DNA of 64,000 nt from the NCBI GenBank assembly GCA_030448245.1, contig JAUJNH010000004.1:248001-312000 (forward strand). Reading direction: 5' to 3'. The position numbers were made by a program, and so were the translations under genes. The stretch is from Acidimicrobiales bacterium (GTDB taxonomy: Bacteria > Actinomycetota > Acidimicrobiia > Acidimicrobiales > JAUJNH01). Positions 4,295 to 17,098 of this stretch are shown piece after piece (the first letter of the stretch is position 1; every line of letters starts with the position of its first letter). The notes under the pieces were generated by a model. That model saw only the letters and a program-made list of their open reading frames with translations. It was not told where the DNA came from and did not search any database.

Positions 4295-6934
4295 TCAGCG
4301 TTGGTGGAAGCGGGCTTGCAGCGTCCGGCCCAGCTCGACCATCTTTCGAGCACGGGGGTAGGCGCGGCGGGCGATAGCCAGGGCCATCGAGGCGCGATCG
4401 CGCCCGGGCACCACACCCGGCGAGCTGGGCAGCCACCCGAACCCGATCTCCACCTCGGCGCGGTACACGTCCACCCCCCACTCGGGCGGGCACTCGTAGG
4501 ACAGCCGCGGGGCCCGATGGGATCCGAGGAGGAGGTTGCCGGACAGGAGTTCGCCGCCGTGGTAGCGGAGCCGACTGTCGCCGTCCGGCCAGCGGACGTC
4601 GACGATCACCGGCTCGGACCGTCCCCTGATCCCGAACAGCAGCCGCATCCAATCCAGCCGGACGAGGCCGGGACCCGGCGGGAACCCGATGCCCACGGCT
4701 CGCAACGGGTTGGCGTCCACCTGCTGGCGCAGGTAGTACAGGCCCCGGCTGTTGGCCCGCATCGGTGGCTGGCGCCGTGGGATGAGCCCGGCGCCGAAGT
4801 CGACGTAGAGGGTGCCGTGGGTGTCTTCGGCGCTGGTGAAGACATCGGCAGGCAGCTCACCAAAGGCGACGGAGGCGGCCGCCCGGGCTAGGGGCGGGTT
4901 GTGGAGCGCGGCCACTGCGAACGGCCAGAAGAGCCGGGTCATGGGCAACTCGAGCAGCTGGAGAGGCGTCATGTACTCGAGCCTCCCGGCCACCGCCTCG
5001 TCCAGCACCCTCTCGGAGGCGTTCGACCCCCAGTTGTCGTCATGGAGCCAGGAGCCGAAGAGGGCCGCCTCTTCGGGTGTGGGCTCGACGACGAAGCGCA
5101 TCAGGATGGCGCGAAGCAGCGGGCGGGCCAGGTCGTTCAGGGCGTGGTGCTCCTCCGGCACCACACCCGCATACCTGCCCCACGTGTCCTGCAGGGCCAA
5201 TATCCCACCCTGGACGGCACGACGCTCGGCATGGTGTTCGGGATCGCCAGAACCCGGCGCGGTCATCGGCCGGCCGTCGTCGTGGAACCCCACGAGAGAT
5301 CCCACCTCCGGCATACAAACCTGTTCGATGATCTCCGGGCTCCGCATGATCCAGCGCACGCTCGGTTCCGGCAGCCCGAGGGTCCCCAGGAAACCTTCGG
5401 CGACCACCCCATCGAGGACGCGCTCGACAGCGGCATCGTTGGTCAGCAGGTAGAGCCCCCGAGTTCGCAGCGCCACGCCCTCCGCCCGCAGCGCGGCGTC
5501 GAGGGCGGCCTGGATGGTGGCTCCCCATCCCAGGTCGACCAGAACGACCTCGCCGGTGTCGCGCCCCGCCGTCGCCACCACGTGCTCGACCAGCCGGCGC
5601 CGGGTCTGGGCGCAGTGGGCGATCACCACCGCCCGCAGCTCGCCATCTTCGGTCACCGACCGGATGAAGCGCTGCCGGAGGGCGGGGTCGTCGAGGAGGT
5701 CGGAGCCCCGTGCGGCCAGCCCGGGCAGCTGGTCCGGGGTGAGCCCGAGGCCTGCGCAGGCCGCGGAGAGCGTGGGTGGCAGGCGGCGGCGCAGGAACGC
5801 GTTGATCTCCCGCGCCGAACAGTTCGCCACGGCCGCCTGCGAGGACACGTACCGGGACAGCCATACGGTGGAGATGTCGACTCCACCGTCGGGACGCTGG
5901 CGCCCTGCGTTCTGCAGCAGGGGCGCCAGGAAGGCGCCCTCGCGCATCGCACAGAGAGCTTGGCCGGCGCCCGCCGCAGCTGCCCGTTCATGCACCCACG
6001 CCGCGAAAGCGGTGAAAACCGGCCCGAACACGGCGGCGCCGGTCATCCAGCACGCCCGCTGACGTTCGGGCAGCGAGGTGGTCACGGTCCCGCGCAGGGC
6101 CTTGGCCCGCAGCGCCGTGAGCCCGAGGTCCCTGCTCCCGTCCACCAGAGGAGCCCGACGCCGAGAGACGGCATCCCCGCGGGCGAAGCCTTCCCGGTGA
6201 AGCAGGGTCGGCAGCGGCTCCGGGCGGCGCGGGAGGAGGACGGCGTGGATCCCCAGCTTGGCCGGACAAGCGACGTCGGCATCGGGGTCATCCCCGAGGT
6301 GCACCACCTCGCCGCCGGTCACCCCCAGGTCTCGCAGAACCGTCTGGAACAGCCCGGAACCCTTGTGGCGCTTGTGCTCCGAGGACGTGAAGACAGCGTC
6401 CAGCCGGATGCCGGTGAAGGGAGGACGATCGAGGATCCGACACAGCTGCCCCCCCGAGAAGTAGGTGTTCGACACCAGCACCACCCGGACATCGCTCGAC
6501 GCCTGCAGGGACCGGGCCAGCTCCACCACCGCGAGGTCAGGAAAGGTGATCGACCGTTCCACCTCGACCTCGAGCGCGGCCAGCTCGGCGGGATCCCCTT
6601 CCCGTACCATGGCCGGAAGCTCCTCGTAGACCTCCTCCAGCGACACTTCGGGAGTTGATCGCGCCCGCTGGCTCCTGGCGCGGGCCCGCACCTCTGCCGC
6701 CTCCCGGAGAGCCGCGAAGGCTTCGGGCGGGCAGCTGAGCCGGCCGGCTCGGGCCAGGCCCCGCCCCACTTCCACAAAGGCGTCAACGGGCTCCGGCACG
6801 ACGCGCCAGACCAGAGTGTCGAACACGTCCAGCGAGAGGACCTTCACCGACTCCCGCTCCGCCACCAGCCGCGCCCGGGCTACTGCAGCGTCCTCGACTG
6901 GCCCTGCCGGCGCCGCAGCCCGCGGGCTGCTCAT
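4295..6934 (-). CDS. Large HAD-type protein with C-terminal extension (downstream copy)
   Basis: An 879-residue protein. An N-terminal HAD phosphatase-like domain carries motif I as DVFDT (residues 36-40), a motif II-like stretch reading VVLVSNTYFS, and an acidic motif III reading HLGDDPDAD. The remaining ~600 residues form a separate region with the signature VVLVDLGWGATIQ, which I recall from the COG5610-type predicted HAD hydrolases of capsule and O-antigen loci. The substrate is unknown; a phosphosugar or a glycan phosphate group is a reasonable guess. The ATG at 6934 overlaps the TGA of the upstream paralogue by four bases (ATGA), so the pair is translationally coupled. No signal peptide is seen, so it probably acts in the cytoplasm. 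Confidence 0.8.
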   Translation of the reverse strand: MSSPRAAAPAGPVEDAAVARARLVAERESVKVLSLDVFDTLVWRVVPEPVDAFVEVGRGLARAGRLSCPPEAFAALREAAEVRARARSQRARSTPEVSLEEVYEELPAMVREGDPAELAALEVEVERSITFPDLAVVELARSLQASSDVRVVLVSNTYFSGGQLCRILDRPPFTGIRLDAVFTSSEHKRHKGSGLFQTVLRDLGVTGGEVVHLGDDPDADVACPAKLGIHAVLLPRRPEPLPTLLHREGFARGDAVSRRRAPLVDGSRDLGLTALRAKALRGTVTTSLPERQRACWMTGAAVFGPVFTAFAAWVHERAAAAGAGQALCAMREGAFLAPLLQNAGRQRPDGGVDISTVWLSRYVSSQAAVANCSAREINAFLRRRLPPTLSAACAGLGLTPDQLPGLAARGSDLLDDPALRQRFIRSVTEDGELRAVVIAHCAQTRRRLVEHVVATAGRDTGEVVLVDLGWGATIQAALDAALRAEGVALRTRGLYLLTNDAAVERVLDGVVAEGFLGTLGLPEPSVRWIMRSPEIIEQVCMPEVGSLVGFHDDGRPMTAPGSGDPEHHAERRAVQGGILALQDTWGRYAGVVPEEHHALNDLARPLLRAILMRFVVEPTPEEAALFGSWLHDDNWGSNASERVLDEAVAGRLEYMTPLQLLELPMTRLFWPFAVAALHNPPLARAAASVAFGELPADVFTSAEDTHGTLYVDFGAGLIPRRQPPMRANSRGLYYLRQQVDANPLRAVGIGFPPGPGLVRLDWMRLLFGIRGRSEPVIVDVRWPDGDSRLRYHGGELLSGNLLLGSHRAPRLSYECPPEWGVDVYRAEVEIGFGWLPSSPGVVPGRDRASMALAIARRAYPRARKMVELGRTLQARFHQR

Positions 6935-9579
6935 GCCCGTGGCCGGAACCGGTCGGTCGCCTCTCGGCCTGCGGATGTCCAGGCCCTGCTGGCGCGGCGC
7001 CGAGCGATGCGGACCGCGTGCAGGAGCACCTCGGCCCTTCCGGCGGGTGGGCTGGCGAGGCGCGGCAGTGGCATCCACGCGAACGCCATCTCCACCTCGA
7101 CGGCGTAGACGCTCGACCCCCAGTCCGCTGGGCACCGGTACACCACCTCGGGCGCCGCCGCGTGAGAGAGCAGCACGTTGTCCGCGAGCGCAACCCCGCT
7201 CTGCAGCATGCTGGTCGGAAAACCGTCCGCTCCATTCAGCTCGACCACGAACGCAGCGTGATCCTGCCGGGCGAACACCAGACGCATCCAGTCGACGCGG
7301 AGCAGGGCGGGCCCCTCTCCGATGTTCAGCATGATCGCCTGGATGGGCCGACCCGTCACCTCCTGTCGGACATAGGACAGCCCGTTGGTGTTGGGCCCCG
7401 CGAAGAGCCGCGCCGCCTCGGCGAAGCCGGCTCCCCGATCGGCCAGCACTCGAACCTGGCAGGGGTTGCTCGGCTCCGCGGCCATCGCCGGGAGCCGGCC
7501 CTCGGCGATCGCCGCGGCAGACATGGCCAGGTGAGGATTGGAGAGCGAGGCGAGGGCGAACGTCCAGTAGGCCTTGTTCATGGGCAGCTCCAGCAGCTGG
7601 CACGGGGTCATGTGCCGCAGAGCCGTCACTGCTCCCGGCACGACCATGGTCTCGATCTCGGTGGAACCGAAGCCCTGGTCGTGCCCCCACCCCGCGAACA
7701 GCCCGATCTCCTCGGCCGTCGGTTCCACGATGAACCGGGTGATCATCTTCGTGAGCTGCGGCCGGGCCGGGGCGTCGAGGGTCCGCATGCGCGGCGGGAC
7801 GACCTCGCTGTAGCGCCCCCACTCCTCCTGGAAGGCGAGGATCCCAGCTTGGACGGCAGTGCGTTGGAGCGTCTGCGTGGGAGTGTCGTCACGAGGCCCG
7901 AGGATGGGCTCGCTGTCGCTGGAGAAGTCGACCAGGGAGCCCCGGTCGTGCATGCACACCTGCTCGAGGATCTCCGGGTTCCTGATGATCCAGTGCGCCT
8001 CCGCCGGCAGGCCACCATCGGCCAGGAAGCCTTCGGCCTGCAGGCCAGACACCATCCGGTCGAGGACGCCTTCGTTCGTGAGCAGGTACAGGCCGATGGT
8101 GCTGAGCTTGCAGCCGCTCTGCGTCAGCGCCTTGTCGAGGTAGGCCTGGATGGTCCCGCCCCACCCCAGGTCCACGAGCACCACCGGTTGATCATGGTGC
8201 TCGACCGTGTCCAGGAAGTAGTCGATCAGGCGGGTGCGCAGCTGGGAAGCACCGGCGATGATGGTGGCCCTGGCGGCAGGGTCGTCGACGAGGTGGTCCA
8301 CCACCCGCCGGACCAGCTCGGGATCGTCCATGGTCTGCCCGCCGCCGGTGTGGACCTCGGCCAGCTGGTCCATGCCGATGCCCACGCTGTCGCAGAAGTG
8401 CTTCAGCGTTGGCGGGACCCGCCGGGCGAGGAACCGCTCGAGCACGTCGCTGGTGACCTCGGCTATGGCAGCACGGGCGACGACCTGGCGGGAGAGCCAG
8501 ATCGGTCGGGCTCGGACGGGCGAGTCGAGATAGGTGCCGGCGCCGTTCACGAGCCGGGTGAGGAACTCGCCCTCGCGCATCATGCAGTAGACGGTGTCCA
8601 CCCCTTGGGCCTGCGCCCGGGCGTGGATCCACTCCGCGAACGCGACGAAGCTGGGGCCGAGGACGGACGCCCCGAAGCGCCAGTACGGGTCGGAGGCGCC
8701 ACCGCCGCGGCTCGGGACGGCCCGGCGCATGGACTTCGACCTGAGCGCCGTCAGCCCGAAGTCCCCGCAGCGGGGGTCGAGGGTCGGCTTCACCTCCTGG
8801 CGGTGGTCTCGCCGGCACAGGCCTTCGTCTTCGAGGATCCCAGGCAGCGAGCCGGTGAGCTTCTCGAGGTGAACGGCCCGCACGCCGCAGAGCTGCGCCG
8901 CCTCGACGTCGGCGGCACGGTTGTCGCCGATGTGGAGGACGGCGCCCGGTGTGACATCGAGCGACCGAATGACGATCGGGAACAGCCCTGATCCCTTTCC
9001 CACGCCGTACTGGTTGGAGGCGAAGACGCGCTCGAACTCCTCCGCGTGGAGCGGATCCTGGTCCAGGAGGATCCGCAGCTGCTGCTCGGAGAAGTAGGTG
9101 TCGGACACGAGGATCAGGCGGACCCCGAGCTGGCTCTTCGCCCAGCGGGCCAAGGCGAGCACGTCGAGGTCAGGAAAGGTGATCGACGTCTCGAGCTCGA
9201 CCTCGATGGCCTCAAGATCGGCGACCGAGCCCACGCGAGCGAGGTGGCCCGGAAGCTCCGCGTAGACCTCGGTGAGGGTGATCTCCGGCACGCGGCCCTG
9301 CTTGATCGCCTTGCCCCGAGCCTTCCACTCGGCTCGCTCCCGGAGGCGGGCGAACAGGTCGGGTGACACCTCCCGGTTGAGCCAATCGAGGTCGAGCAGG
9401 TGCTGGCCCAGCAGCACGAACGCGTCGACCGGCTCGGGAACCGCCCGCCACAGGAGGGTGTCGAAGATGTCGATCGACAGGACCTCGAAGGACTCCCGCT
9501 CCAGCAGCCGGGCGGCATCGGCCAACCCGGTGAGCCCGTGCAGCCGGGCATCGGCCTGGGTGCTCTCGGTGCTCACCAT
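6931..9579 (-). CDS. Large HAD-type protein with C-terminal extension (upstream copy)
   Basis: An 882-residue paralogue of the gene that follows it, with the same architecture: HAD motif I as DIFDT (residues 37-41), a motif II-like VSDTYFSEQQ, motif III HIGDNRAADV, and the C-terminal signature VVLVDLGWGGTIQ. Both share stretches such as EIGLFAGW or its equivalent and a PLQLLELPM-like motif, so the copies arose by tandem duplication but have diverged well beyond a recent event. I chose the ATG at 9579 because homology to the second copy begins soon after it; the open frame extends further upstream through low-complexity Arg/Pro-rich sequence that looks non-coding. Function is not known. Its setting in a glycan locus suggests a phosphatase-like step or regulation of glycan assembly. 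Confidence 0.8.
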   Translation of the reverse strand: MVSTESTQADARLHGLTGLADAARLLERESFEVLSIDIFDTLLWRAVPEPVDAFVLLGQHLLDLDWLNREVSPDLFARLRERAEWKARGKAIKQGRVPEITLTEVYAELPGHLARVGSVADLEAIEVELETSITFPDLDVLALARWAKSQLGVRLILVSDTYFSEQQLRILLDQDPLHAEEFERVFASNQYGVGKGSGLFPIVIRSLDVTPGAVLHIGDNRAADVEAAQLCGVRAVHLEKLTGSLPGILEDEGLCRRDHRQEVKPTLDPRCGDFGLTALRSKSMRRAVPSRGGGASDPYWRFGASVLGPSFVAFAEWIHARAQAQGVDTVYCMMREGEFLTRLVNGAGTYLDSPVRARPIWLSRQVVARAAIAEVTSDVLERFLARRVPPTLKHFCDSVGIGMDQLAEVHTGGGQTMDDPELVRRVVDHLVDDPAARATIIAGASQLRTRLIDYFLDTVEHHDQPVVLVDLGWGGTIQAYLDKALTQSGCKLSTIGLYLLTNEGVLDRMVSGLQAEGFLADGGLPAEAHWIIRNPEILEQVCMHDRGSLVDFSSDSEPILGPRDDTPTQTLQRTAVQAGILAFQEEWGRYSEVVPPRMRTLDAPARPQLTKMITRFIVEPTAEEIGLFAGWGHDQGFGSTEIETMVVPGAVTALRHMTPCQLLELPMNKAYWTFALASLSNPHLAMSAAAIAEGRLPAMAAEPSNPCQVRVLADRGAGFAEAARLFAGPNTNGLSYVRQEVTGRPIQAIMLNIGEGPALLRVDWMRLVFARQDHAAFVVELNGADGFPTSMLQSGVALADNVLLSHAAAPEVVYRCPADWGSSVYAVEVEMAFAWMPLPRLASPPAGRAEVLLHAVRIARRRASRAWTSAGREATDRFRPRA

Positions 9580-9687
9580 CGGTCTGAACCGCCTGCCTTT
9601 GTAGCCTCGACCTCTGCACGTTAGTGGTGGCGGCCATCCCGCCCCCCTGGAGTGGCGTGAGGTGGGGGCGCGGGGACGGTGTTGGTC

Positions 9688-14255: not shown

Positions 14256-15377
14256 TCAGACCGTCGGGACGAAGCGGAAGATCTGGTTCTTCACGGCGAC
14301 CGGCTCCCACAGCTGGACCGCGGCGCCAGACCCACCGGCCCCTCGCACGTCGAGGCGCAGGCCAGACGCGGAATGCACGATATGACGTTCGTGGGGCTCC
14401 ACCTGCTCGAACCGGAAGCGCTGGGCGGCGGACCAGTTGATCGCCGAGACGTGCAGGCCCGCACCGAGGAAAGCGTTGTTGCCCGGCACCTCGAGAGCAA
14501 GGGTCCCGTTGAGAGTGAGGAACGACACCTCGCCTGTGCTGTGGGACACGATGCGCCACCGCTGGTCGATCCCGCCATCACTGGGATAGGTCAAGACCGG
14601 GTCCCCCTGCTTCCCCTGCCAAGGAAGGTCCCACAGCAGGCCGGAGTGAGCGGCAGAGATGTGGGCGGTCGGCTGGTTCTGGGGCTTGAACAACTCGTCC
14701 TCCTGCGGTGGGGGGGGAGCGGCCGGGAGGCAGGGAGCGTTGTGGGTGACCGTGCGGTTGTCGGTACGGCTCGTGGTCGTGCATCTCGAGCTCCACACCC
14801 ATGGGGGCGTGCAGAGAGCGACGCGGCACACGACCGGGCCGGCGCAGGCGATCTGGGTGTTGCACTGCCCGTACCGGAACTGGTTGCAGCACACCCTGCG
14901 CTGATCGCAGGTGCCGGACGCGCAGTAGCACCTGCACTGGGTCGGGCAGGTCGCGTTGCAGTCCACGATGTAGCGCGCGCTGCCGTTGCAGAACGGTGAG
15001 GAGTCGATCTTCCACCACCCTGCTGCGAACGAGTACGGGGGGCATGTGTTCGAGCCGTGAACCGTGCAGCAGAACGCGGTCCACCCGGAGCTGCACGAAG
15101 CGCCGTCGCCGCAGACTGATGCATAGGCGGTGCCGGGCCGGAGGATGAATCCGAATCCTCCGGTGGCCAAGGCGGAGCCCACGAGCGCAGCGCTCTCCAG
15201 GACGCTGCGGCGGTTGGTCCGCCGTTCGAGGACCAAGGAGGCTCTCTGCACCAGTCGCTCGGTCAGGGCCCGGCTCGGGGTGGGCTCGGCGGTGTCACCA
15301 GTGGCAGTGCCGGCATCCTGTGCAGCCGTGCCGGAACTCACCGGGTCCTCGCGACGACCGATCGCTCGAAGCGACAT
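14256..15377 (-). CDS. Tat-exported Cys-rich protein with C-terminal ricin-type beta-trefoil
   Basis: A 373-residue protein in three parts. Residues 1-85 end in a twin-arginine-like signal (RTNRRSVLESAALVGSALA). Next comes a ~130-residue block with 20 cysteines, including GWTAFCC, NTCPP and RVCCNQFRYGQCN. I recall this pattern from actinobacterial proteins grouped with the methylamine dehydrogenase light chain fold, which is held by six disulfides; that link is from memory. The last ~140 residues form a beta-trefoil with three QxW-like repeats (QRWRI, QRFRF, NQIFRF), typical of R-type lectins, and resemble the domains of the next gene. It is probably folded in the cytoplasm or with disulfide help, exported by Tat, and binds glycan at the surface. 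No enzymatic partner subunit is seen nearby. Start supported by TAGGGT at 15385-15390. Confidence 0.75.
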   Translation of the reverse strand: MSLRAIGRREDPVSSGTAAQDAGTATGDTAEPTPSRALTERLVQRASLVLERRTNRRSVLESAALVGSALATGGFGFILRPGTAYASVCGDGASCSSGWTAFCCTVHGSNTCPPYSFAAGWWKIDSSPFCNGSARYIVDCNATCPTQCRCYCASGTCDQRRVCCNQFRYGQCNTQIACAGPVVCRVALCTPPWVWSSRCTTTSRTDNRTVTHNAPCLPAAPPPPQEDELFKPQNQPTAHISAAHSGLLWDLPWQGKQGDPVLTYPSDGGIDQRWRIVSHSTGEVSFLTLNGTLALEVPGNNAFLGAGLHVSAINWSAAQRFRFEQVEPHERHIVHSASGLRLDVRGAGGSGAAVQLWEPVAVKNQIFRFVPTV

Positions 15378-15484: not shown

Positions 15485-16942
15485 TCAGACGGTGAGGATC
15501 AACCGGAAGACCTGGTTGGCCACGTTGACCGGTGACCACAGCTGGAGGCGGTCGCCGGCGCCGCCGGCGGCGTGGACGTCGAGGCGCAGGCCGGAGGAGG
15601 GGTGCACGATGCGGTGTTCTTGGGGTTCGATCTGTTCGAGCCGGAAGCGCTGGGCGGCGGACCCGTTGACTGCCCAGACTCGCAGGTTGGCTCCCGGGTA
15701 GGCGTTGTTGCCGGGCACCTCCAGGGCGAGGTTGCCGTCGTGGGTGAGGAAGGACACCTCGCCGTTCGGGTGGGTCACGATGCGCCACCGCTGGTCCCAG
15801 CCGCCGTCGCTGAAGTAGGTGGCGACCCCGTCGCCGTGGGCGCCCAGCCACGGGAGGTCCAACAGCAGGCCCGAGTGGGCCGCAGACACGTGGGCGGTCG
15901 GGGCGGCCGATCTTGCGATGGTGCTCTTCCACGGGACGGTGGGGAGGAACCGGAAGACTTGGTTGGCCACGTTGACCGGTGACCACAGCTGGAGGCGGTC
16001 GCCGGCGCCGCCGGCGGCGTGGACGTCGAGGCGCAGGCCGGAGGAGGGGTGCACGATGCGGTGTTCTTGGGGTTCGATCTGTTCGAGCCGGAAGCGCTGG
16101 GCGGCGGACCCGTTGACTGCCCAGACTCGCAGGTTGGCTCCCGGGTAGGCGTTGTTGCCGGGCACCTCCAGGGCGAGGTTGCCGTCGTGGGTGAGGAAGG
16201 ACACCTCGCCGTTCGGGTGGGTCACGATGCGCCACCGCTGGTCCCAGCCGCCGTCGCTGAAGTAGGTGGCGACCCCGTCGCCGTGGGCGCCCAGCCACGG
16301 GAGGTCCAACAGCAGGCCCGAGTGGGCCGCAGAGACGTGGACCGTCGGGCCGGCGGCGGGTTTCGGGGCGGCGGTGTACCAGGAGGTGCGGGCGTTGGCG
16401 CCGTCCCAGCTCAGCGAGAAGTGGACGTGGTCGGTGTGGGGGTTGGCCCCGGTGTAGGTCTGCCAGCCCCGGTTGGTGCCGTAGGACTTCCAGACCTGGC
16501 GGTTCCAGATCACGTACATGATGCCCAGCCGGCGAGCCATGGCGTTGACGTTGCCGTAGGCGTCCGTGGCGAGGAGCCAGGTCAGCAGGTCGGTGGCCAT
16601 GGCCTTCTGGGCGGGGTCGAAGGCGTTGACCCCCCAGTCGTAGGCTCGACCCTCCTTGTGCTCCGACGTGCCGCCGATGGAGCAGTCGCGCCCGATGGCG
16701 ATGGGCGTGGTCGCAGGATAGGTGGCCTCGAGAAGGTCCCGCAGCGCGATGGCCCCCGGCTTGGGCGTCGGATCGCACGTCGTCTGGCCGACGTAGGCGG
16801 CGAGCGAGTCGATGGCCGGCCCGAACTGGGGCGTGGCCGGAGCTGCCCGGGCACCGGTGGCGCTTAGGGCGAGGCCACCGGCGAGTACCGACACGACCAG
16901 TACGACCCTCGTCAGGACTGGACGAAGGCGGAGCATCATCAT
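15485..16942 (-). CDS. Secreted M15-like metallopeptidase with two near-identical beta-trefoil domains
   Basis: 485 residues. A Sec-type signal peptide (hydrophobic VVLVVSVLAGGLALSATGARA) is followed by a ~150-residue domain with GTSEHKEGRAYDWGV and HTDHVHFSL. These fit the SxHxxGxAxD and HxH zinc ligands of D-Ala-D-Ala carboxypeptidase / extensin-like folds (M15-type), so peptidoglycan peptides are a likely target. Two ricin-type beta-trefoil domains follow, joined by a short linker; each has QRWRIV and QRFRLEQ repeats and the two are almost identical because the DNA is duplicated. The likely role is a cell-wall hydrolase or binding protein anchored to glycan. I chose the ATG at 16942 (first of three ATGs in a row); a GTG at 16969 is the alternative and neither has a clear ribosome site. 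Confidence 0.75.
   Translation of the reverse strand: MMMLRLRPVLTRVVLVVSVLAGGLALSATGARAAPATPQFGPAIDSLAAYVGQTTCDPTPKPGAIALRDLLEATYPATTPIAIGRDCSIGGTSEHKEGRAYDWGVNAFDPAQKAMATDLLTWLLATDAYGNVNAMARRLGIMYVIWNRQVWKSYGTNRGWQTYTGANPHTDHVHFSLSWDGANARTSWYTAAPKPAAGPTVHVSAAHSGLLLDLPWLGAHGDGVATYFSDGGWDQRWRIVTHPNGEVSFLTHDGNLALEVPGNNAYPGANLRVWAVNGSAAQRFRLEQIEPQEHRIVHPSSGLRLDVHAAGGAGDRLQLWSPVNVANQVFRFLPTVPWKSTIARSAAPTAHVSAAHSGLLLDLPWLGAHGDGVATYFSDGGWDQRWRIVTHPNGEVSFLTHDGNLALEVPGNNAYPGANLRVWAVNGSAAQRFRLEQIEPQEHRIVHPSSGLRLDVHAAGGAGDRLQLWSPVNVANQVFRLILTV
15501..15886. repeat. Tandem direct repeat, copy A (386 bp, period 447)
   Basis: Matches 15948-16333 with a single visible mismatch (C at 15512, T at 15959). 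It encodes the second beta-trefoil domain of the M15-like protein. Confidence 0.9.
15948..16333. repeat. Tandem direct repeat, copy B (386 bp, period 447)
   Basis: Partner of 15501-15886. The period of 447 bases is exactly 149 codons, so the reading frame is kept. It encodes the first beta-trefoil domain. Confidence 0.9.
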
Positions 16943-17098
16943 GGTCTGTTTCGGCGCGGACGCGGGCACCTTGACGACGTGCCCCGCTGTGCGTCGTGCA
17001 CCCTACCGGCTGGCTCCACCGCCGGCTCAAACTGCGAGCTGCGGCAGGTGCCCACCTCCTACCGGGCGGAGGCCCCAGCCGGCCGACTTCAAGGGGGG

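Follow-up and report, generated by a model that had tools for sequence, protein, structure and literature searches.

A possibly MauA-like, cysteine-rich surface protein family of Acidimicrobiia-related actinobacteria and its orphan lectin fusion

What is a protein with a twin-arginine leader, 20 cysteines and a lectin likely to be doing outside the cell? The gene that raises this question lies in a stretch of 64,000 nucleotides from an Acidimicrobiales genome, which we call the window, and we put the probability at a little under 60% that its Cys block is a MauA-like, disulfide-rich surface module that lacks TTQ and is served by a dedicated operon, the window copy being an orphan fused to a lectin. 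The block defines a family with an almost perfectly co-occurring partner gene, and the second TTQ tryptophan is absent from every member, as are matches to the heavy chain MauB and to MauG from the genome itself. The descent of the block from a common ancestor with MauA, its role at the surface and the way in which the window copy would be matured are argued below from predicted structure, gene context and sequence comparison.

The window gene and its family

The original prediction described a Tat-type signal, a 20-cysteine block and one ricin-B-type lectin in a single protein, and all three are present in one ORF of 373 residues that begins with ATG (Table 1). Arg56-Arg57 is followed by a hydrophobic stretch and by AYAS in the cleavage region, a leader layout that matches those of the relatives and of MauA; with TIGR01409, the paralogue on contig C22 of the same genome scores 15.4 of 16.7 bits, which is sub-threshold. 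The 20 cysteines of the protein all fall within the block, whose residues are covered by no Pfam or NCBIfam model. RicinB_lectin_2 (PF14200) matches residues 234-302 (4.5e-14, 53.3 bits against a cut-off of 25.6), and gives 2.8e-15 against the C-terminal 155 residues alone.

Table 1. Features of the fusion-protein gene and of its neighbor, in window coordinates
Feature	Position	Strand	Basis
Fusion-protein gene: leader, Cys block, Pro-rich linker, ricin-B-type lectin (373 aa + stop)	14256..15377	minus	ORF and Pfam
N-terminal extension and twin-arginine leader, residues 1-86; RR 56-57 at 15207-15212	15120..15377	minus	sequence
20-Cys block, residues 89-216, probably MauA-like by fold and family context	14730..15113	minus	
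Trp121-Trp122, invariant pair, one being the likely counterpart of TTQ Trp57	15012..15017	minus	alignment columns 48-49, hhalign MAC alignment
Ala177, taken as the counterpart of TTQ Trp108	14847..14849	minus	alignment column 104; register from hhalign and structural-alignment end points
Single ricin-B-type (beta-trefoil) lectin, residues 234-373	14259..14678	minus	Pfam PF14200
Neighbor gene with two ricin-B-type lectin copies, likely donor lineage of the Cys-protein lectin	15485..16969	minus	Pfam and DNA comparison

The block is far from chance, because the genome (3.26 Mb in 22 contigs, 92.8% complete) contains another copy, on C22, that is 89% identical over the block, relatives elsewhere are 42-70% identical, and 26 columns are invariant in an alignment of 110 Cys blocks, including 13 cysteines, Trp-Trp, RY..DC and FRYG.C. 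The C22 protein has no lectin and stops 27 residues past the block. Across the family the block measures about 130-170 aa. Matches occur in 87 of the 395 genomes sampled from the class and in 31 of 396 from the phylum. Named genome contigs yielded 29 loci (one a fragment) on scanning, most of them from MAGs, with titles naming Acidimicrobiales, Ilumatobacteraceae, Aquihabitans, Nitriliruptoraceae, unclassified Actinomycetota and, once, Mycobacterium. There were no matches in 72,556 plasmid records. Pfam and NCBIfam searches with the 110 blocks returned scattered chance-level matches only, and a search of the openly licensed PMC literature found no paper on the family. Selenocysteine was considered for the in-frame TGA of L015 and L174-L177 and rejected, as this TGA simply terminates the reading frame right behind the Cys block.

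How did the window copy acquire its lectin? The neighboring gene had been described as a peptidase with the same lectin domain; the lectin type is indeed the same, in two copies, but no Pfam peptidase family matches at E<=10. By eye, an H-DHVH-like motif can be seen in the N-terminal part of its product. Its two lectins are 98.3% identical to each other in DNA, and the tandem appears to be a very recent duplication, whereas the lectin of the Cys protein has 76.7 and 76.9% DNA identity to the two. The Cys parts of the window and C22 copies are 84.4% identical in DNA over 546 aligned bases. On these comparisons the simplest history would be duplication out of the operon, after which the copy was joined to a lectin like those found locally. 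Since all 20 cysteines and the Trp-Trp pair are kept, the window gene does not look decayed, and it is best read as an orphaned paralogue carrying a fused lectin.

Resemblance to MauA and capacity for TTQ

The original prediction likened the Cys block to the MADH light chain and named PF02975-type profiles and structure prediction as means of comparison. In sequence profiles the likeness was not borne out: PF02975 matches none of the 110 Cys blocks at E<=10 and nothing in the genome itself, no genome of the 396 from the phylum exceeds the cut-off, hhalign finds no significant similarity between the Cys profile and MauA (E 0.02-0.04, probability 1-2%), and a search of PDB sequences with the Cys profile retrieved none. 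PF02975 scraps at E<=0.1 in 35 of the 396 phylum genomes were discarded as noise, being sub-threshold, often short or stop-interrupted, and matched by controls as well; a 10-column end match from hhalign in global mode was discarded as meaningless.

Predicted structure speaks weakly for the likeness. AlphaFold models of the window Cys block (pLDDT 86) and of the distant relative L199 (pLDDT 83), two proteins that are 48% identical and whose models were built on overlapping alignments, were compared with the PDB. Foldseek gave no match at E<=0.001 for either model. When the models were re-aligned to the chains that Foldseek ranked highest (54 and 52), 9 of 54 and 13 of 52 reached Z>=2 and, counted as one row per entry, every one of these is an AADH or MADH light chain (8/8 and 13/13). 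The light-chain alignments have Z of 2.2-2.8, values that may reflect no more than a shared arrangement, with rmsd 3.0-6.9 over 67-81 residues. Because the two models converge on one family and on no other, homology of the Cys block to MauA is likely, as far as predicted models can indicate. The light-chain resemblance proposed at the outset is partly supported, by the weak Z>=2 rows of both models and by the MauE/MauD-like genes in the operon of the relatives, and gains no support from the PF02975 profile.

We also looked at co-variation of cysteines. Positions 71 and 105 co-vary modestly, with phi 0.53, with 16 of 110 members discordant and in a gappy region; their pairing is what we take the MADH disulfide C78-C109 to predict. 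Positions 75 and 90 co-vary at 0.98, which is uninformative about MADH. Both the missing profile match and the weak structural Z would be expected if the block were a disulfide-rich surface or binding protein with a fold of its own, unrelated to MauA by descent, and with MauE and MauD acting as a general oxidation system. We consider this possible but unlikely, as it leaves unexplained why the Z>=2 rows of two models contain only TTQ light chains and why the 71/105 pair co-varies; the gene context that bears on it is taken up below.

Could the block, if homologous to MauA, form TTQ? We set the residue register to MADH by hhalign and by the structural-alignment end points. The end points pair window-model residue 118 with AADH 178 and L199 residue 132 with MADH 128, and together with the hhalign accuracy alignment they agree in placing block Cys111 on MADH Cys121. 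In the same register FRYGQCNTQIAC falls on YRPEFANDIIWC, so that Ala104 pairs with Trp108, with column 110 as an alternative by eye. The number Trp108 for the second TTQ residue is the one we assume here, as are the number of Asp76 and the AADH numbering. At the second TTQ position, whether taken as column 104 or as column 110, tryptophan occurs in none of the 110 members. The first position looks different, as the Trp-Trp of columns 48-49 is present in 110/110 and aligns near TTQ Trp57, in a register that is not certain. The two TTQ residues are named beta-Trp57 and beta-Trp107 in one published account (PMC6405878). Of the two tryptophans that the original prediction proposed to look for, the second is absent from all 110 members and the first may have a counterpart in the invariant pair.

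The genome, which is 92.8% complete, has no match to the heavy chain MauB (PF06433) at E<=10 and none to MauG (PF03150) at E<=1. Because the second tryptophan, the heavy chain and MauG are all missing, the Cys block, judged by its sequence and gene complement, cannot be an ordinary TTQ dehydrogenase, and the earlier guess that the protein is not an amine dehydrogenase agrees with these results. The missing features place the block outside the TTQ light chains as a class; they do not disprove common descent.

The operon and the partners of the Cys block

Operon genes were found by all-against-all comparison of neighboring ORFs at 129 loci, followed by profile searches. Counted on crude six-frame ORFs from contigs that are often cut, with 7 duplicate loci removed and other near-duplicates kept, the 122 loci have p160 in 114, a mauD-like gene in 111, mauE in 110 and a DsbD-like gene in 87, in varying order. 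At L061, the C22 locus, the four genes lie head to tail ahead of the Cys gene. The MauE protein there matches PF07291 (7.7e-13, 49.3 bits against a cut-off of 27). The membrane-anchored CxxC thioredoxin has MauD TIGR02661 as its sole NCBIfam match (1.1e-5), missing the equivalog cut-off with 25.1 of 188.6 bits; 14 of 31 relatives of this thioredoxin match the same model at E<=0.01, the best at 1e-9. A membrane protein of 203 aa shows weak DsbD_2 similarity, and DsbD_2 is matched by 19 of 30 membrane proteins of the family operons, at best with 2.1e-7. The fourth gene, p160 (L061:8355-8840), encodes about 160 aa with residues that are invariant across relatives; it falls into no family, and the one PDB match of its profile, at E 1.5, is not convincing. 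Ahead of the operon, at L061:5032-6204 on the plus strand, is a gene whose product, by eye, resembles a HypD-like hydrogenase maturation factor.

At the genome level the association is nearly complete. Among 395 genomes the Cys block occurs in 87 and p160 in 88, with both in 85 (Fisher 4e-80); the exceptions number two on one side, G144 and G006 (a weak match interrupted by stops), and three on the other, G072 and G282 (both partial matches) and G345. Beside the window copy the operon genes are absent, in a locus comparison covering window bases 1-30000, and genome-wide searches place p160 on C22 only and give no MauE match inside the window. The original prediction noted no heavy-chain or maturation gene close by. 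This holds within the window, but genes of the maturation type do sit beside the Cys-block copy on C22.

Two further MauE homologues were noted in the genome. The best match to PF07291, at 76.8 bits, is at 9018-9599 (plus strand) of L228 (G000:C12:110000-128500), and the remaining operon genes were not found on that stretch of C12. At L229 (G000:C3:15500-34000), at about 6400-8960 on the minus strand, a MauE-like sequence, a double thioredoxin and a Tat-leader Cys-rich protein stand in a row. The MauE-like sequence spans two frames, perhaps through a sequencing frameshift; the double thioredoxin has CGPC and CGFC motifs; and the Tat-type leader protein carries many Cys-rich repeats, different in kind from the Cys block. 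The C3 set fits with MauE/MauD serving Tat-exported Cys-rich proteins generally, which accords with a TTQ-less module served by such an operon; it also favors the block having its own fold, since here MauE and thioredoxins are paired with repeats that are apparently unrelated. Published work on Streptomyces points the same way, describing candidate RiPP clusters that carry MauE/MauD homologues without the rest of the mau cluster (PMC7794033). Against a separate origin is the arrangement in Paracoccus and its relatives, where mauD also lies directly 5' of mauA.

The same Streptomyces clusters might suggest that the Cys block is the precursor of a processed, RiPP-like Cys-rich peptide that is freed from a large carrier. 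We find this exceedingly improbable for a block of 130-170 residues that retains its invariant columns across divergent genomes and is predicted, with the pLDDT given above, as a folded domain, in an operon where no peptidase or other RiPP enzyme is conspicuous.

What lies behind the Cys block differs from member to member. The C-terminus is complete in 105 members, 97 of which run for at least 40 residues past the block, and Pfam finds in these 97 C-termini LGFP (24), SLH (12), FG-GAP (6), DUF4214 (4), CWB2 (3), RCC1 (3) and ricin-B (2), with many lacking any Pfam match; three Ribosomal_L24e matches and several singletons are probably spurious. By eye, the second ricin-B member is L122, equal to L008. 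Given this variety, the lectin is an interchangeable C-terminal module, drawn from a wide range of wall- or glycan-binding modules, and not a defining feature of the family.

Seven of the 12 loci that lack a C-terminal module have instead a separate gene for a secreted PD40 beta-propeller downstream of p160, and two of the seven propeller proteins also resemble SLH, one scoring above the cut-off and the other below it. A phmmer search of all 131 loci with three propeller queries (the propeller parts alone) matched those seven and L113, where the match is weaker, on the opposite strand and in a locus that does have a C-terminal module. No propeller was found at L061, L139 and L226, which lack the module, and at the near-duplicates L200 and L201, also among the 12, the sequence ends before the propeller position. 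A neighbor family of 31 ORFs was abandoned as a single group, being a mixture of SLH proteins and PD40 propellers. By eye, genes downstream of p160 at L083, L084, L086, L089, L111, L115 and L117 encode secreted proteins with SLH-like repeats, the SLH similarity at L083 being sub-threshold in Pfam; such proteins behind the operon fit a surface-layer role.

The heavy chain of MADH is also a propeller, so that the parallel with the PD40 partner is suggestive, by analogy. Might the block then be a redox enzyme after all, using a protein-derived cofactor that is not TTQ (made, for instance, from the Trp pair or the PPW Trp) and with the propeller in place of the heavy chain? W48, W49 and D66 are invariant in 110/110 and W120 is kept in 96/110 (alignment columns); the separate propeller gene and an unexplained p160 with invariant residues could be accommodated too. 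Set against this are the recurrent neighbors, among which no cytochrome, cupredoxin, MauG or flavin enzyme is conspicuous by eye, a genome devoid of MauG and heavy-chain matches, and the glycan- or wall-binding modules that most members carry where a propeller would be expected, and we judge such an enzyme improbable. The invariant WW, R62, Y63, D66 and FRYG could nevertheless mean that the block is more than a passive scaffold.

A surface module compared with known systems

In the reading that we prefer, a MauA-like surface module without TTQ, the Cys block would be a distant, cofactor-less relative of the TTQ light chain (MauA or AADH beta). Its protein would be exported by the Tat route, and about ten disulfides would be oxidized by the dedicated MauE, the anchored CxxC thioredoxin and the DsbD-like protein, together with p160. 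The fused glycan- or wall-binding module, or the separate propeller in members that have none, may then anchor the block to the surface. Because TTQ cannot form and there is no heavy chain or electron acceptor, the block, locked rigid by its disulfides, would serve as a surface or binding module and not as a dehydrogenase. The window gene would be a duplicate outside the operon that took a ricin-B lectin of the neighboring lineage, presumably for attachment to polysaccharide. Since the operon genes are absent next to the window copy, its maturation in trans by the C22 operon is an assumption.

The TTQ light chain is hardly known outside its role as active subunit in two amine dehydrogenases. 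A family with the helper genes and without the cofactor would imply that MauE and MauD are a general oxidative-folding system for Tat-exported Cys-rich proteins, would offer a test case for their working free of the complication of TTQ, would name a substrate for many actinobacterial MauE/MauD-like genes, and would explain why one Cys block is combined with many unrelated surface modules. It would suggest that an old enzyme scaffold has been reused as a cell-surface protein. A bolder and rather doubtful proposal is that Acidimicrobiia-related actinobacteria possess a TTQ-less surface system resembling light chain plus propeller, made up of a MauA-fold module, an oxidative-folding operon and either a fused glycan or wall module or a separate propeller, which would be a non-enzymatic or differently modified sister lineage and the source of, or a parallel to, MADH and AADH.

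Compared with MauA and AADH beta (PF02975; 2bbk_L, 1mg3_B, 3orv_C, 2agy_H), the family shares a twin-arginine-type leader with an N-terminal extension, a small Cys-rich domain with a CPPG...W core and a D-C motif, and an operon with MauE and MauD genes, the latter being MauD-like and below the equivalog cut-off in the family and at the C22 paralogue. Unlike them, the Cys proteins have 20 cysteines in the block against 12 in MADH, long swappable C-terminal modules, no PF02975 match and no second TTQ tryptophan. The MADH beta subunit has six disulfides (PMC7876137). With the MauE/MauD maturation of Paracoccus the operon has in common a MauE that exceeds the Pfam cut-off and an anchored CxxC thioredoxin; it differs in that the MauD-like protein stays under its cut-off, in the addition of the DsbD-like protein and p160, and in a substrate without TTQ. 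The LGFP, SLH, CWB2 and ricin-B modules behind the Cys block are the same Pfam domains as elsewhere, whereas the block itself lies outside the tested Pfam and NCBIfam models. The candidate RiPP clusters of Streptomyces (PMC7794033) have short peptide precursors, unlike the Tat-exported folded domain and surface modules of the family described here.
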